Part shown: piece by piece, positions 7,128 to 30,448 of the stretch | Layout: every line of letters begins with the position of its first letter | Position numbering within the stretch: the stretch's first letter is position 1 | Made by a program: the position numbers and the translations under genes | Notes under the pieces: generated by a model | Seen by the model: only the letters and a program-made list of their open reading frames with translations | Database searches by the model: none | What the model was told of the DNA's origin: nothing | Assembly: GCA_946536145.1 (NCBI GenBank) | Contig: CAMNEA010000019.1 | Span: forward strand, 1-43,740 | DNA length: 43,740 bases | Direction: 5' to 3' | Source: an uncultured Butyrivibrio sp. | Lineage (GTDB): Bacteria; Bacillota; Clostridia; Lachnospirales; Lachnospiraceae

Positions 7128-8612
7128 ATGGATTTTACTATGGTCGAAGCCGGGTGGCTGTCTATTCTGCCACCAGTGATTGCAATCGTACTTGCTCTTG
7201 TTACTAAAGAGGTCTACTCATCTCTGTTTATCGGACTGATTTCCGGAACACTTATATACAGTTTTTTGAGCGGCGGGAGCATTATTACAGCTTTCGCGAC
7301 TGCCTTTGATATGATGTATGCCAAGATTGCGGACAATGCTTATATGATCATTTTCCTGGCTTTGCTCTGGGGAGTGGTCATACTTGTCTCGAAATCCGGA
7401 GGCAGTGAGGCCTACGGCAGATGGGCGCAGAAGAGGTTAAAGAGCAAAAGATCTGCCGCCATCGCAACCTCATTACTTGGGATTCTCATTTTTATCGACG
7501 ACGGGTTTAACTGCCTGACGGTCGGAACCGTTATGAGACCCATTGCTGACAAGCTTAAGATATCAAGGGAGAAGCTGGCATATATTATCGATGCAACGGC
7601 AGCACCGGTGTGCATTATTGCTCCGGTATCAAGCTGGGCAGTTGCTGTTGCCAGCGAGGTCAGTGAGACCAATGGATTTAATGTGTTTTTATCCACAATA
7701 CCATACAACCTGTATGCAATTCTGACTATCGTGATGGTCTTTGCCATAAGCATAACGGGGCTCGATTTTGGCCCTATGAAGAAGGCAGAAGATGATGCGG
7801 TGCAGAGTAAGGCAACAGATACTGCATCGAAGCAGGATCCCAATTCGGGGGGACAGGTAATAGACCTTGTACTTCCTGTACTTGTACTGGTGGTATGTGC
7901 GATTCTCGGAATGGCCTATGTGGGCGGATTCTTCCGGGGAGTTAGTTTTTCCGAGGCTATAGGCTATAATCCCACCGCAGGTCTTACACTTGGTGCTTTT
8001 GCAGGGCTTTTGTGTGCATTTGTGCTCTACATCCCAAGGAAGCTTATGACACCGAAGGAGTACGTGAAAAACATCGTTGACGGCATAAGCAATATCGTGC
8101 CGCCGATGCTGATACTTGTTCTGTCCTGGAGCCTTGGAGGTGTATGCAGACAGCTTATCGGCACAGGTGTGTTTATCTCCGGATTTGTCAGCGGATCACA
8201 TCTTCCGCTCGGATTTTTGCCGTTTATATTATTTATCGTGGCTGCGCTTATGAGCTTTTCAATGGGAACGAGCTGGGGAACATTTGGAATGCTTATACCC
8301 ATCGTTACGATGATATGTGCATCGGACGGAGCGGCTGCATACCTCATTCCGACCCTCGGGGCAACGCTGGCAGGATCTGTGTACGGTGATCACTGCTCGC
8401 CCATATCGGATACTACGATCCTTGCATCCACGGGTGCGAGCTGCGAACACATAAGACATGTGGAGACACAGCTTCCTTATGCAACGATTGTGGCAGTTAT
8501 ATGTGCTATCTGTTATCTTGTCACGGGATTTGCACTCACGCCGTGGACCGGACTTGCACTGGGGATAATGCTGGTGCTTGCTGCGATCTTTGTACTCAAC
8601 AGGAGAATATAA
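7128..8612 (+). CDS. nhaC: NhaC family Na+/H+ antiporter
   Basis: A 494-residue polytopic membrane protein with about twelve hydrophobic segments. Family signatures include FIDDGFNCLTVGTVMRPI, SFSMGTSWGTFG and GDHCSPISDTTILAS, all typical of the NhaC superfamily. Members exchange Na+ for H+ or couple Na+ with organic acids (the MleN malate/lactate type); the sequence alone does not separate these. GGGGGAGGA precedes the ATG at 7128; the upstream TTG at 7107 was rejected. A LysR gene lies just upstream and a bidirectional terminator directly overlaps the stop. Na+ or pH homeostasis is the likely role. Confidence 0.85.
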   Translation: MDFTMVEAGWLSILPPVIAIVLALVTKEVYSSLFIGLISGTLIYSFLSGGSIITAFATAFDMMYAKIADNAYMIIFLALLWGVVILVSKSGGSEAYGRWAQKRLKSKRSAAIATSLLGILIFIDDGFNCLTVGTVMRPIADKLKISREKLAYIIDATAAPVCIIAPVSSWAVAVASEVSETNGFNVFLSTIPYNLYAILTIVMVFAISITGLDFGPMKKAEDDAVQSKATDTASKQDPNSGGQVIDLVLPVLVLVVCAILGMAYVGGFFRGVSFSEAIGYNPTAGLTLGAFAGLLCAFVLYIPRKLMTPKEYVKNIVDGISNIVPPMLILVLSWSLGGVCRQLIGTGVFISGFVSGSHLPLGFLPFILFIVAALMSFSMGTSWGTFGMLIPIVTMICASDGAAAYLIPTLGATLAGSVYGDHCSPISDTTILASTGASCEHIRHVETQLPYATIVAVICAICYLVTGFALTPWTGLALGIMLVLAAIFVLNRRI

Positions 8613-25622: not shown

Positions 25623-27272
25623 GTGAATAATAAGAAGATACTTGAGAACAAACTGTTTTTGTACCTGACAGAGTTTTTTGCCGGGATGAGCGTGATGGCG
25701 GTCGAGCTTGGAGCGAGCAGGCTCCTTGCCCCATATTTCAGCTCATCTCAGATCGTGTGGACTATTATAATAGGAACTATCATGATCGCAATGGCGCTGG
25801 GAAATATCTACGGCGGAAGGAGGGCGGATAAAGACCCGGATCCGGGCAGGCTCTATGCGAGGATCCTCATCGCCGCGCTCTGGATAGCAGCCATACCCGT
25901 AGCCGGCAAATACATCATACTTGGAATATCAGCGGTGCTTGTTTTTGCGGTCAACAGCAATTTTCTTGTTATTGCCGCATTTGCAGCCTGCATGGTTGTG
26001 TTCGTGTTCCCGCTGTTTCTCCTTGGAACAGTAACGCCAAGCCTTGCCAAGTATACGACGGATTCCCTCGAGGACAACGGCAGGATAATTGGAACACTCG
26101 GGGCGTTCAATACAATAGGAAGCATCATCGGAACTTTTGTGCCGACCTTCGTGACAATCCCGGCTGTCGGTACTTCCATTACATTTCTGATATTTGCAGG
26201 CATACTGCTGCTGCTTTCAATTCTGTACTTTGTAAGTCCGGGCGAGGGTGAAGGCACAAGCTTTCGCGGCGGTAAAAAGGTAATTGCCGGAATCCTTATC
26301 TTTATCCTGTGCGTGATTTTCGGTCACAGCACGAGCTTTGCTTTCTGGGAGGACAACCTGACCTTTGAGGGCGAGTCAGTATACAACTATCTTCAGGTTA
26401 AGGAGGATGACAGAAGCGTCATCTTATCTACAAATGTTCTCTTTGGTGTCCAGTCCATCTATATGAAGGAGGACACCCTGACAGGAATGTACTACGACTA
26501 TGCGCTTGCTGCTCCTTTCATGTCGGGAGTCAGGGATAAAGAGAAAATGGGAGAAAAGACAAAAGTCCTTATTCTTGGAATGGGATCCGGGACCTATGCA
26601 ACCCAGCTGGAAAGATACTTTGACTGCGTTGACATAAAGGGAGTGGAGATTGATGAGAGGATAACCGATCTTGCTCACAGGTACTTTGAGCTGCCGAAGA
26701 GCCTGGAGGTTACGACCTATGACGGAAGAGCTTACCTTGCAGCAATAGATGATAAGTACGATGTGATAATGGTGGATGCATATCAGGACATCACAATTCC
26801 GTTCCAGATGTCCTCTGAAGAGTTTTTTACAATGGTCAAAGAGCACCTTGCTCCGGGTGGAGTGATGGTCGTAAACATGAATATGTACAGCGAGGATCCG
26901 CAGGATCTTGAGGCGGGGAGCATTAACACCTATCTGGCAGATACCATCGCTTCTGTCTTTGAAAATGTGGTAACCGTCGATGTGCCTTACGCTACCAACA
27001 GAGAACTTTTTGCTTCAGGAGACGACGCCTTTATGGACAGGCTCTTGTCTAATGCAGAGGCTGAAGAGGACGCAGATCTTAAGAAGCTCATGGAGAATAC
27101 CTATGCATCGGCTGTCAGGTACGAAAGTACAGGCCATGTCATGACCGACGACAAGGCACCGGTGGAACTTCTTGGTATGCGACAGATCGACCTTATTATC
27201 AGGAACGAAGTGGATTATTACAGAAAAGTCTATGACAACTACGGTATCCGGGGACTTCTGGAACTTTTGTGA
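25623..27272 (+). CDS. Membrane-anchored spermidine-synthase-like protein
   Basis: A 549-residue two-part protein. Residues 10-245 hold about seven transmembrane helices resembling the MFS-like module of fused SpeE proteins (FFAGMSVMAVELGASRLLAPYF). The C-terminal 290 residues are a Rossmann methyltransferase/aminopropyltransferase-like domain with GMGSGTYATQLERYF, the ligand Asp/Glu of VEIDERITDLA, and YDVIMVDAYQD. The start is GTG at 25623, after GGAGAAGG. Fused forms are known, but their substrates are not established and polyamine synthesis should not be assumed. It is followed by an unknown gene and the TetM-NYN gene; the 35-base gap suggests one transcript. Confidence 0.8.
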   Translation: MNNKKILENKLFLYLTEFFAGMSVMAVELGASRLLAPYFSSSQIVWTIIIGTIMIAMALGNIYGGRRADKDPDPGRLYARILIAALWIAAIPVAGKYIILGISAVLVFAVNSNFLVIAAFAACMVVFVFPLFLLGTVTPSLAKYTTDSLEDNGRIIGTLGAFNTIGSIIGTFVPTFVTIPAVGTSITFLIFAGILLLLSILYFVSPGEGEGTSFRGGKKVIAGILIFILCVIFGHSTSFAFWEDNLTFEGESVYNYLQVKEDDRSVILSTNVLFGVQSIYMKEDTLTGMYYDYALAAPFMSGVRDKEKMGEKTKVLILGMGSGTYATQLERYFDCVDIKGVEIDERITDLAHRYFELPKSLEVTTYDGRAYLAAIDDKYDVIMVDAYQDITIPFQMSSEEFFTMVKEHLAPGGVMVVNMNMYSEDPQDLEAGSINTYLADTIASVFENVVTVDVPYATNRELFASGDDAFMDRLLSNAEAEEDADLKKLMENTYASAVRYESTGHVMTDDKAPVELLGMRQIDLIIRNEVDYYRKVYDNYGIRGLLELL

Positions 27273-27307
27273 ACCTGCACCGGGTTTATAAGTCGAGGAG
27301 AAGATTA

Positions 27308-27730
27308 ATGAGCAGTGATTTAAGAGCGGAAGACAAATATGCACAACAGATGAAGGCACTTCTCATGATCCAGGTCATGGGTCAGACCAGTGTCAACTTT
27401 TTAAATAAGAAGAAACTGGGGAGAGAGATGCAGGAACATCTGTCCGCATTTGACCTTGAGGAGGGTGAGCTCATAGAGTTTGCGGAGTTTTTTGTTCAGT
27501 CAAGCATGAACTCCAAGGCCTACAAGACCGCCGTCTTTGGGGCAATTCCCATGAGCGATGCCGGTGCTGCCACAAGACTTGCAGCGGACATAGATGAGAT
27601 AACGAGGGTAATTCCGGGGCGGCTCGGGATGGAGATCGATGCCGGGAATTTAAGAACTGCTCTTCTTTCAGCATATAAGAAACTTATACCTAACGCTGAA
27701 GGGCTTCTCTCCGAGCAGGGTATTGAGTAA
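27308..27730 (+). CDS. Unknown 140-residue cytoplasmic protein
   Basis: A helical, acidic protein with no signal or membrane segment. The ATG at 27308 follows GAGGAGAAG by about six bases; the longer frame from 27269 has no ribosome binding site. It starts SSDLRAEDKYAQQMKALL and continues as predicted helices, with ELIEFAEFFVQSSMNSKAYKTAVFG in the middle. I do not recognise the family. It ends 15 bases before the TetM-NYN gene, so the two are likely co-transcribed and may be functionally linked. Confidence 0.75.
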   Translation: MSSDLRAEDKYAQQMKALLMIQVMGQTSVNFLNKKKLGREMQEHLSAFDLEEGELIEFAEFFVQSSMNSKAYKTAVFGAIPMSDAGAATRLAADIDEITRVIPGRLGMEIDAGNLRTALLSAYKKLIPNAEGLLSEQGIE

Positions 27731-27745
27731 ACAGAGGATTTGCTG

Positions 27746-30448
27746 ATGGCAAAATATATTACGATCGGGATTCTTGCCCATGTTGATGCGGGCAAGACAA
27801 CTTTGTCGGAGGGCATGCTGTATCTCTCCGGAGCAATAAGGAATATGGGAAGGGTGGATAAGAGAGACACCTTTCTTGATACATACGAATTAGAGAGAGC
27901 CCGCGGGATAACTATTTTTTCCAAGCAGGCTGTCTTTGATTATGGGGATATCACGTATACGCTGCTGGATACGCCGGGACATGCGGACTTTTCTCCCGAG
28001 ATGGAAAGGACGCTGCAGGTTCTGGATATGGCGGTACTTCTGGTGAGCGCTGCCGATGGTGTCACGGGACAGGCAAAGCTTCTGTTCAGGCTTCTTGAGC
28101 ATTATCATGTGCCGACAGTTCTTTTCATAAACAAGATGGATCAGATAAAGGATGACCGTGACAGCGCTAAGAAAGATATCCTTAATGAGTTAAAGAGCAG
28201 CCTAAGCAGCCACATTGTGGACTTTACAAACGGATGGGAGGACGAGTCTGTAAGAGAGGAAATCGCTGTCTGTGATGATGAGCTGCTTGCCGGATTTCTC
28301 GAGGGCAAGGACATATCAAAGGACCAGGTAAAGAGCCTTGTAAATGATAGAAAATGCTTTCCTGCGCTGTTTGGCTGCGCGCTGAAAATGGACGGTGTAA
28401 AAGAGCTGCTGGATACGGTCACAGAGTATTCGGTGTCTTTTTCTGAAATAGATTCTGCCGCAAAAGACAGCTTTGGAGCAAGGATCTTTAAGATCAGCCG
28501 CGATGATGGCGGCAACAGACTGACACACCTTAAAATAACAGGCGGATCCCTTAAAGTCAGAGACCAGGTGGGTGATGAGAAGATAGATCAGATAAGAGTC
28601 TATTCGGGTGATAAGTTTTCGGCAGTTCCGCAGGCAGAGGCCGGGATGGTAGTCGCGGTTCTTGGACTGTCCGGAGGAAGGGCAGGCGAAGGCCTTGGAA
28701 ACCTTAAAGACAAGAGCGTCTCAGAAGTCATTGCGCCTATTTTTTCGTCGGCGCTGATTCTTCCTGAGGGAGCTGACGCATCGGTCGTGTACAGACAGCT
28801 AAAGAGCCTTGAGGAAGAGGAGCCGATGCTGAGCGTATCGTACCTCGAGGAGACCGGAGAGATACAGCTTCAGCTGATGGGCGATGTGCAGAAGGAGATT
28901 CTTGCGCACCTGATAAAGACCAGGTTTGGACTTGATGTCAAATTTGGGCCGGGACACATCGTTTACAAGGAGACCATAACAGAACCGGTGGAGGGAGTTG
29001 GACACTTTGAGCCGCTTAGGCACTACGCGGAAGTTCATCTTCTTCTTGAGCCTCTTGAACCGGGGAGCGGATTGCAGTTTGACAGCAGGTGCAGCACTGA
29101 TGAGCTGTCACTCAACTGGCAGCGGCTCATAATGACTCACCTTGCGGAAAAGAAACACCGGGGCGTCCTTACGGGGGCTGAGATAACTGACATAAGGATA
29201 ACGCTCCTTGCCGGAAAAAGCCACGTCAAGCACACAGAGGGCGGAGATTTCAGACAGGCTACCTACAGGGCTGTAAGGCAGGGGCTGATGATGGCAGACT
29301 CTGTTCTGCTTGAACCGGTTCTGGACTACAGACTTGAGGTGCCATCTGACTACGTGGGCAGGGCGCTCACGGATATGCAGAGGATGAACGCGACAGTGTC
29401 CGGACCTGAGATAGAGGGGACAATGTCAGTGATATCGGGGATCGTGCCTGCCGCAAGCTTTGGAGATTATGCCAAGGATGTAGCAGCCTATACAAGGGGC
29501 GAGGGGAGGATATTCACCACGCTCAGCGGCTATGCTCCATGCCACGACCAGGAGGAGATCATTACGCAGAAAAACTATGATCCGCAGGCTGATCCGGGCA
29601 ATTCGCCGGATTCGGTGTTCTGCATGCACGGCGCAGGAACAGTCATACCCTGGGATCAGGTGAGGGAGCACATGCATGTCCAGTCAGGGTGGGATCCCGA
29701 GAGCAAAGCCATAACAACTGACCTGTCGGACAACATCGACATGGAGGCGCTAAAAAAGCTTCAGAAAAAGATCAGAAACAAAGATAACAATGAAGAGAGA
29801 TCTTTTGACGAGATAGAAAGAGAGCTTCGGGCTACGGAAGGCGAACTTAAGGCAATATTTGAGAGAACTTACGGGCCTGTCAAAAAGAGATACGAGGAAA
29901 AAGAAAGCGTTTATCAGGGACTGACCAAAGAAGAAAAAGAGGCGCGAAGAGACCTTGAGCTCGAGCAGCAAAAGAGAGAAAAATATGAGAATGCCAAAGG
30001 CCAGAGCCCGGATGAATACAAGGAGTATCTGCTTGTTGACGGATACAATATTATTTATGCATCAGATGAGCTCAAAAGCCTTTCGGCTGCCGATCTTAAA
30101 GCGGCGAGGGACAAGCTTATAGATATCCTCATCAATTTCCAGGGCTTTCGCAGGGAGAGGGTGATCCTTGTCTTTGATGCCTACAAGGTCCCCGGGGGAA
30201 AAGAGCATGTCGAGGAAACGTCAGGTCTTTTGATTGTTTATACAAAAGAAGCAGAAACGGCGGATCAGTACATTGAAAAAGCTGCCCATGAAATCAGCAA
30301 AAAATACAGGGTAAGTGTTGCAACTTCCGATGCGATAGAACAGGTTATCGTGATGGGCAGCGGCGCATTAAGGCTTTCTGCCAGGGACTTCTGGGAAGAG
30401 GTAGAAAGAACCGCTCAGAGCATAAGAGAAAAAATTAAAGATATATAA
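27746..30448 (+). CDS. TetM-like ribosome GTPase fused to a C-terminal NYN (YacP/Rae1-like) nuclease domain
   Basis: A 900-residue protein. Residues 1-650 are a TetM/TetO-class translational GTPase: G1 AHVDAGKT (11-18), ERARGIT, DTPGHADF (D75), NKMD (129-132), GCALK, and the EF-G-like domains III-V (FGPGHIVYKETI; GHFEPLRHYAEVHLLLEPL). The tetracycline-protection loop sequence of true TetM is not evident. Residues about 665-760 are a charged helical linker. The end is a NYN/PIN-type domain (YLLVDGYNII) with four conserved acidic residues at D765, D811, D840 and D862. Rae1/YacP cuts mRNA in the ribosomal A site; TetM-type GTPases bind there. The ATG at 27746 has AGAGGA seven bases upstream. Confidence 0.85.
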   Translation: MAKYITIGILAHVDAGKTTLSEGMLYLSGAIRNMGRVDKRDTFLDTYELERARGITIFSKQAVFDYGDITYTLLDTPGHADFSPEMERTLQVLDMAVLLVSAADGVTGQAKLLFRLLEHYHVPTVLFINKMDQIKDDRDSAKKDILNELKSSLSSHIVDFTNGWEDESVREEIAVCDDELLAGFLEGKDISKDQVKSLVNDRKCFPALFGCALKMDGVKELLDTVTEYSVSFSEIDSAAKDSFGARIFKISRDDGGNRLTHLKITGGSLKVRDQVGDEKIDQIRVYSGDKFSAVPQAEAGMVVAVLGLSGGRAGEGLGNLKDKSVSEVIAPIFSSALILPEGADASVVYRQLKSLEEEEPMLSVSYLEETGEIQLQLMGDVQKEILAHLIKTRFGLDVKFGPGHIVYKETITEPVEGVGHFEPLRHYAEVHLLLEPLEPGSGLQFDSRCSTDELSLNWQRLIMTHLAEKKHRGVLTGAEITDIRITLLAGKSHVKHTEGGDFRQATYRAVRQGLMMADSVLLEPVLDYRLEVPSDYVGRALTDMQRMNATVSGPEIEGTMSVISGIVPAASFGDYAKDVAAYTRGEGRIFTTLSGYAPCHDQEEIITQKNYDPQADPGNSPDSVFCMHGAGTVIPWDQVREHMHVQSGWDPESKAITTDLSDNIDMEALKKLQKKIRNKDNNEERSFDEIERELRATEGELKAIFERTYGPVKKRYEEKESVYQGLTKEEKEARRDLELEQQKREKYENAKGQSPDEYKEYLLVDGYNIIYASDELKSLSAADLKAARDKLIDILINFQGFRRERVILVFDAYKVPGGKEHVEETSGLLIVYTKEAETADQYIEKAAHEISKKYRVSVATSDAIEQVIVMGSGALRLSARDFWEEVERTAQSIREKIKDI

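Follow-up and report, generated by a model that had tools for sequence, protein, structure and literature searches.

Why would a translation GTPase and a nuclease of the Rae1 type be made as one polypeptide, and what has become of the separate Rae1 gene in genomes that make them so? These questions are raised by a gene at positions 27746 to 30448 of a 43,740-nt stretch of DNA (hereafter the window) from an uncultured Butyrivibrio sp., that is, positions 1 to 43,740 of contig CAMNEA010000019.1 in GenBank assembly GCA_946536145.1. Parts of three papers (PMC6613710, PMC10100781, and PMC8266666) describe Rae1, the YacP protein, as a ribosome-associated endoribonuclease of the A site that is proposed to enter stalled ribosomes. 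We consider that the fusion encoded in the window probably took over the job of Rae1, with the GTPase giving access to the ribosome; as part of the same reading, it is likely to have replaced stand-alone Rae1 in most of the sampled Lachnospiraceae genomes and also in many genomes elsewhere in the class.

One open frame for a GTPase and a predicted NYN_YacP nuclease

The open reading frame starts with ATG, preceded by AGAGGA at 27733-27738, and its translation of 900 amino acids (aa) contains zero internal stops. An AlphaFold2 model of the full-length protein, built from 79 aligned fused sequences, had a predicted local distance difference test score (pLDDT) of 88 and a predicted template modeling score (pTM) of 0.70; the linker (residues ∼656-757) was poorly ordered in this model, and the block 861-870 around D862 was weak (confidence 59). 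The parts of the gene are as follows.

27746..30448, + strand: whole gene, a fusion of translation GTPase, C-terminal extension, linker, and NYN domain, 900 aa (open frame, Pfam, AlphaFold2 model)
27755..28429, + strand: G domain, residues 4-228, with AHVDAGKTT, DTPGH, and NKMD (Pfam GTP_EFTU, 4.7e-51)
28475..28948, + strand: EF-G-like domains II and III, residues 244-314 and 331-401 (EF-G_D2, 8.5e-07; EFG_III, 2.4e-08)
28955..29296, + strand: domain IV, residues 404-517, by family the expected ribosomal A-site arm (EFG_IV, 2.7e-18)
28988..29035, + strand: tip loop 1 of domain IV, residues 415-430, VEGVGHFEPLRHYAEV, partly family-specific (row comparison)
29213..29254, + strand: tip loop 2 of domain IV, residues 490-503, GKSHVKHTEGGDFR (row comparison; YYSPVST in TetM-like rows)
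29303..29551, + strand: EF-G-like domain V, residues 520-602 (EFG_C, 2e-16)
29552..29710, + strand: C-terminal extension, residues 603-655, with an SVFC motif; unfused homologues stop about here (conserved cysteines, unfused ends)
29711..30016, + strand: charged helical linker, residues about 656-757, of low model confidence (pLDDT blocks 48-75)
29843..29875, + strand: linker motif ELxxIFxRTYG (E700, I704, T708), in the fused form only (alignments)
30029..30439, + strand: NYN_YacP nuclease domain, residues 762-898, with D765, D811, D840, and D862, without the Rae1 C-terminal tail (Pfam, 1e-47; 5mq9, 4.7e-24; Foldseek TM 0.80)

Pfam, the model, and the alignment together display the five-domain EF-G-like layout with intact G motifs; across 72 fused and unfused rows, D14, K17, D75, H79, and D132 are present in all and H12 in 70. 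Searches of the PDB with phmmer returned TetO (3.3e-80) and TetM for the GTPase part, and Rae1/YacP (5mq9) for residues 761-899. The initial annotation, made from the letters of the DNA, had described a TetM-like GTPase with all G motifs intact, joined through a charged linker to a NYN domain that retains four acidic residues, and these points were borne out. A complete EF-G-like GTPase (residues 4-602) and NYN_YacP (762-898) share the frame, the motif residues are kept in aligned rows, and a 110-residue stretch of the linker region holds 25 K/R and 29 D/E. The four aspartates stand where they had been placed and are invariant in the 79-row alignment; the NYN/YacP profile search that had been suggested found NYN_YacP well above its curated cut-off, and the predicted structure contains the NYN fold.

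The nuclease half resembles Rae1 of Bacillus subtilis (5mq8 and 5mq9) in family profile, fold, and acidic residues. Its NYN_YacP score was 162.6 bits for a cut-off of 24.6, and a separate AlphaFold2 model of this part (pLDDT 86, pTM 0.82) had chains of 5mq8 and 5mq9 as its sole Foldseek matches at E ≤0.001. A profile made from 42 fused NYN domains likewise found 5mq8/5mq9 alone in the PDB at E ≤1. With the same fold and about 40% identity, D765, D811, D840, and D862 align with Rae1 D7, D53, D81, and D104, of which D7 and D81 have reportedly been tested in Rae1. The four were also invariant in an alignment of 40 fused proteins (the window's own being counted in this and in the larger alignment). 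Three divergent fused proteins outside both alignments (L253, L254, and L255) read DSYN or DAYN for DGYN and keep the first aspartate. The differences from B. subtilis Rae1 are that the window domain is joined to a GTPase and lacks the C-terminal tail that holds R166. A NYN domain 63% identical to that of the window was also seen at 7593-7964 of MT835563.1, an unannotated 32-kb "Bacteriophage sp." record from human feces, where it may be phage cargo or bacterial contamination.

Separate yacP genes in fused and unfused genomes

Our survey covered 120 genomes of the same family and 343 genomes of the class; the group names of sampled genomes, Lachnospiraceae included, were inferred from named relatives such as Butyrivibrio. 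NYN_YacP was found in 108 of the family genomes, in frames of at least 840 aa in 96, of 174-184 aa in six, and of intermediate length in six. The domain is nearly always single-copy, 105 of the 108 genomes giving a single match; in G030 a contig end holds a further NYN fragment, which could be another copy. The GTPase family accompanied it in 105 of the 108 NYN-bearing genomes and was found in 0 of the 12 NYN-less ones. The three exceptions were G005, G054, and G115, a 106th match in G054 (1.3e-42, 644-codon frame) having been set aside as probably Tet-type. The NYN_YacP matches at G115:C43:27866-28273 and G054:C16:22009-22500 lie in frames of 690 and 260 codons with no GTPase family match, and may be broken fusions or domains with other partners.

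Across the class, 217 genomes carried NYN_YacP and 141 the GTPase family, the latter divided into 118 fused and 23 unfused. The fused set comprises 110 genomes with a frame of at least 840 aa and eight with shorter or broken frames (G163, G181, G190, G291, G303, G308, G353, and G411), which were counted because NYN_YacP is also present; in G308 the two halves share one frame. Among the unfused, the frame of G321 has 293 codons only. Only one of the 118 fused genomes had a full separate yacP, compared with 16 of the 23 unfused ones (Fisher 8e-15, not corrected for kinship); weak second NYN matches of 21 bits in G239, G293, and G326 were not counted as Rae1. Eleven of the 16 genomes with unfused GTPase and yacP belong to a single family code (f37). 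A phylum-wide draw of 249 genomes yielded the GTPase family in 18, of which 13 were labeled to the same phylum only, and two of these were unfused. Named records with the family came from Butyrivibrio, Intestinimonas, Anaerovorax, Fusibacter, and many Lachnospiraceae and Oscillospiraceae (80 kept of at least 590).

In fused genomes the slot of yacP mostly lacks the gene. The stand-alone gene lies in a cluster cysS-mrnC-rlmB-yacP-sigH, with rlmB close by in 18 and sigH in 17 of 21 loci (rlmB, sigH, and cysS were confirmed by NCBIfam, and mrnC was named by its place, where NCBIfam gave no match); the window gene lies outside such a cluster and has other neighbors. We surveyed 28 fused genomes besides G000 and obtained rlmB loci for 26; sigH adjoined rlmB in 17 and was not seen in the other nine. 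Between the two genes, yacP was intact in one of the 17 loci (G401), a clear remnant in two, and a doubtful trace in one (19 residues in G415, E 0.28). The remnants were one with stops and frameshifts in G141 (L197:2355-2715, 3e-12) and a C-terminal piece in G235 (L200:1312-1485, 2e-10). The remaining 13 slots gave zero trace of yacP at E up to 10; they include that of the same-genus genome G142, in which the matches to rlmB and sigH share 7 nt, with no yacP between them.

Many fused proteins also lack the end of Rae1. The window domain stops short of the C-terminal tail, which ends in an ExxR-type stretch and within which R166 of B. subtilis falls in the alignment; PMC6613710 lists R166P among loss-of-function suppressors in B. 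subtilis. A tail model built from 21 stand-alone YacP proteins matched to its end in 21 of 21 of these by construction, in 22 of 41 fused NYN domains of one sample, and in 25 of 78 of another, the three fused proteins with DSYN or DAYN being excluded. NYN parts of ≤150 residues numbered 0 of 21 stand-alone, 12 of 41 fused, and 30 of 78 fused. A strict tail-end pattern occurred in 7 of the 21 stand-alone proteins and in no fused one, and the tail is hence only loosely described. On the fused GTPase tree the state of the tail requires six changes by parsimony, which does not distinguish loss from regain. Tail loss in so many fused copies suggests that the NYN domain now depends on its partner, and we propose that the tail became dispensable because the GTPase supplies the ribosome contact. 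The linker, of 61 to 112 residues by the measure that gives 110 in the window, carries an element of its own: E700 is invariant in 40 fused rows and kept in at least 90% of 79, and the strict motif around E700, I704, and T708 was present in 28 of the 44 fused proteins, with zero matches among 28 unfused and 21 stand-alone YacP proteins.

A GTPase tree of 82 rows, made by a rapid LG+G4 search with a single long row as outgroup and without L242 and L256, placed 44 fused proteins in one clade (Shimodaira-Hasegawa-like approximate likelihood ratio test, SH-aLRT, 99) and 28 unfused proteins in another (SH-aLRT 91, not starred), and the two together were separate from TetM-like and EF-G rows (SH-aLRT 100). 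The unfused family member, of about 650 aa, was present in 10 of 21 tested genomes with stand-alone yacP, one copy being truncated, and ten neighbors of six unfused genes were unrelated. L225, L230, L233, L237, L240, and L241, from genomes without NYN_YacP, branch close to the root of the unfused clade with the NYN-bearing row L224 beside them; their gene neighbors, among them a DNA ligase, a YlmH-like gene, and SpoIVA, are unrelated.

The GTPase half beside Tet proteins and EF-G

The architecture itself is already in print, since the part of PMC4342817 that concerns it, from 2015, noted Tet-NYN fusions in ten clostridial species and guessed at a role in resistance; those fusions, of the same architecture and from clostridiales, are very probably the same proteins as the family described here. 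Our literature search, which was partial and did not cover the discovery and distribution papers of Rae1, found mention of the fusion in PMC4342817 only. As far as that part of the paper goes, the fusions are counted as Tet proteins, whereas our analysis covers a class-wide sample and adds a non-Tet GTPase family, an unfused sister clade, wide spread, exclusion of yacP, decay of its slot, and tail loss. Under the 2015 proposal the protein would protect the ribosome from tetracycline or another ribosome-directed drug, with the NYN domain contributing an RNase step. Among solved structures, TetO and TetM indeed score best against the GTPase half, and it shares the five-domain layout, the G motifs, and some tip residues with them. 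Nevertheless, the window protein scored 420.8 bits with the NCBIfam tet_protect model for a cut-off of 775, and three other family members scored 381-448, whereas two intact TetM/W-type proteins from the sampled genomes passed at 819 and 874. The EF-G model TIGR00484 gave 279.1 bits, far below its cut-off of 659.4. The label "TetM-class" of the initial annotation thus holds for the domain layout common to both, and fails in the Tet family tests.

The tips of domain IV, which in Tet proteins contact and dislodge tetracycline according to the relevant part of PMC4342817, provide a second criterion. In the window protein the loops read GHFEPLRHYAEV and KHTEGGDFR, and the YYSPVST of TetM-like rows is replaced by SHVKHTE. 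Tip residues were counted over the 44 fused and 28 unfused rows, of which those fetched later were chosen by an HTxGGDF motif, making the counts partly circular for loop 2; this filter dropped zero unfused loci and missed two fused ones, L242 of G308 and L256 of G120, which were checked afterwards and read GHFEPLRHYSEV / KHTSSGDF and AHFEPIRHYAEV / KHTEPPDF, respectively. All 74 rows have H420, E422, P423, H426, Y427, E429, H496, T497, D501, and F502. The three TetM-like rows compared differ at 426, 427, 429, 496, and 497 (F, W, S, V, and S, respectively); H420, E422, P423, D501, and F502 are common to them and to the family, a likeness that speaks for the resistance role. G499 and G500 occur in 72 of 72 rows and not in both of L242 and L256. 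The family also has two cysteines (window 29540-29623) at and after the end of domain V that were not seen in the TetM-like and EF-G rows compared. C599, just before the C-terminal extension, is present in 44 of 44 fused and 27 of 28 unfused rows (the exception being a gap in a truncated row), and C626 in 42 of 44 and 27 of 28; L242 is without the first and L256 without the second.

H493, kept in 71 of 72 rows, is the same histidine in 5 of 5 EF-G rows, where it presumably meets the codon-anticodon pair. With EF-G the family also shares domain order and fold, and it differs in most other checked tip residues as well as in score and clade. The shared histidine would suit a NYN domain that cuts not mRNA but another RNA bound to the ribosome, for instance tRNA in the A site or rRNA; the only solved NYN relatives found, however, are Rae1, described as an mRNA nuclease, and we rate such a target as improbable. 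Judged by profile scores, tip residues, and clade, the GTPase half is a family of its own beside the Tet proteins, with a distinct domain IV tip and an extra C-terminal extension.

Database names and plasmid records bear on the resistance proposal as well. RefSeq gives the label TetM/TetW family tetracycline resistance protein both to a fused Agathobacter rectalis protein (L277:1717-4518) and to an unfused, plasmid-borne relative in Ligilactobacillus salivarius (L276:2849-4768), each with a non-Tet tip; the L. salivarius protein, of 639 aa, keeps HT at 496-497 and differs at 493 and 495. For a Monoglobus copy the RefSeq name is "translation factor GTPase family protein," which bears out the guess in the initial annotation that Clostridia proteins of about 900 residues labeled as translation GTPases share the design. 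The domain IV-V part matched 1120 plasmid records, none at ≥60% identity; the 12 listed were two Clostridia replicons (252 and 518 kb) and ten L. salivarius plasmids, and the three records examined of the 1120 were all typed as non-mobilizable, the L. salivarius copy being unfused. An acquired mobile gene was accordingly rejected on the plasmid search, with 3 of 1120 matching records examined. The wide presence of the fusion (a NYN frame of at least 840 aa in 96 of 120 family genomes), together with the lack of any mobile-element gene among the window proteins scanned, is unlike an acquired gene, and the same-genus genome G142 has a separate Tet-type gene. Despite the RefSeq name and the plasmid-borne relatives, the profile score with its two positive controls and the altered tip loops lead us to disfavor tetracycline resistance, which we hold to be a distinctly poor candidate for the function.

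A mobile Rae1 on Clostridioides plasmids was also considered. Of 12 records with a NYN match, the one examined, a Clostridioides difficile record of about 97 kb, carries cysS, an RNase III-domain gene, thyX, rlmB, NYN, sigH, tuf, secE, and nusG (L278:1-6408) and has the look of chromosomal DNA deposited under a plasmid label; these matches were not counted as mobile. No family among the PADLOC-DB defense models matched at E ≤0.001, and a defense-system reading was rejected on this ground.

In the window, the fusion is closely preceded by a small gene.

27269..27730, + strand: DUF6553 gene, 15 nt before the start of the fusion (Pfam DUF6553, 2.1e-17)

It shares 4 nt with the end of an MFS/spermidine synthase-like gene, and the three genes perhaps form one transcript. 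The DUF6553, ApbE, and GH88 neighbors had no tblastn match at 1e-3 in the other loci searched; a close homologue (64-75%) of the neighboring MCP gene was found in three loci, and the MFS/spermidine synthase-like gene in one (L138).

Proposed action on the ribosome

GTPases with this five-domain layout are expected, as a family, to bind the ribosomal A site, and that site is the presumed place of action both of their domain IV and of Rae1. Replacement of yacP together with tail loss is most simply accounted for if the nuclease now reaches the ribosome through the GTPase. We infer that the GTPase half in its GTP form would bind the ribosome at the A site and that the tethered NYN half would then cut the mRNA on the GTPase-bound ribosome, so that a paused message would be destroyed where it paused. 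The GTPase would give the ribosome contact that Rae1 may partly draw from its C-terminal tail. The two halves, wanting the same site, could not occupy it jointly; their action would have to be sequential, with a hand-over of the A site that the linker of roughly 100 residues would allow. The ribosome-directed cutting of mRNA proposed in the initial annotation is in this way still the best reading, given the near single-copy NYN domain, the almost complete absence of a separate yacP from fused genomes, and the two remnants. A bolder version, tentative and somewhat less likely than not, is a GTP-gated, ribosome-borne mRNA cutter in which the histidine-bearing tip of the GTPase would test the A site of paused ribosomes and, once GTP is hydrolyzed, the A site would pass to the tethered NYN domain for cutting of the codon; such a protein would serve gut Clostridia as a core quality-control factor and would have displaced Rae1.

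Several observations weigh against a take-over of the job of Rae1. A collision of both halves at the A site, to be expected unless they act in sequence, is one. The family genome G005 has a stand-alone yacP without the GTPase, and G401 carries an intact yacP and the fusion together. The link between unfused GTPase and yacP is modest (16 of 23 genomes, compared with 83 of the 202 without the GTPase; p 0.014, not corrected for kinship). Seven of the 23 unfused genomes (G144, G147, G173, G187, G296, G321, and G404) have no NYN_YacP, and a renewed search of them at E ≤0.1 gave nothing but one 13.7-bit match in G187; the GTPase therefore has a use without the nuclease, and a strict dependence on Rae1 was rejected. 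The tail is kept in about half of one fused sample (22 of 41). In a weakly supported tree of 61 NYN rows, stand-alone YacP proteins of the window's order fall among the fused ones and the fused group needs three changes, which leaves a single origin of the fused NYN domain unsettled. The window's own assembly, 72.7% complete, gave no rlmB match above cut-off, and its slot was not located. Finally, no neighbor family recurs in more than 6 of 40 loci of the fused gene, and the neighborhood thus provides no hint of a pathway.

Some of these observations would suit a GTPase with a ribosome task of its own, such as clearing the A site, that carries the NYN domain as a passenger acting independently on RNA, the fusion serving only to couple expression. 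Such an arrangement is compatible with the unfused GTPase in genomes without NYN_YacP, with NYN_YacP in the 83 genomes without the GTPase, and with a long linker that is poorly ordered in the model. It is at odds with a linker element that the fused clade retains and neither parent shows, and with the loss of the tail, which suggests dependence on the partner; the near absence of a full separate yacP from fused genomes speaks less clearly, as a passenger could likewise make that gene redundant. We regard an independent passenger as unlikely, and a nuclease brought to the ribosome by its GTPase as the better account.

In B. subtilis Rae1 stands alone as a protein, and its route to ribosomes and its choice among them are apparently not settled in the literature; a natural covalent pairing of GTPase and nuclease, in 96 of 120 genomes of the family and 118 of 343 of the class, points to a partner and makes the question amenable to test. 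Because RefSeq names at least two non-Tet members of this family as tetracycline resistance proteins, such labels could inflate the counts of resistance genes in gut data. The unfused pairs, the fused forms, and the decaying yacP copies together constitute a natural series for experiments.

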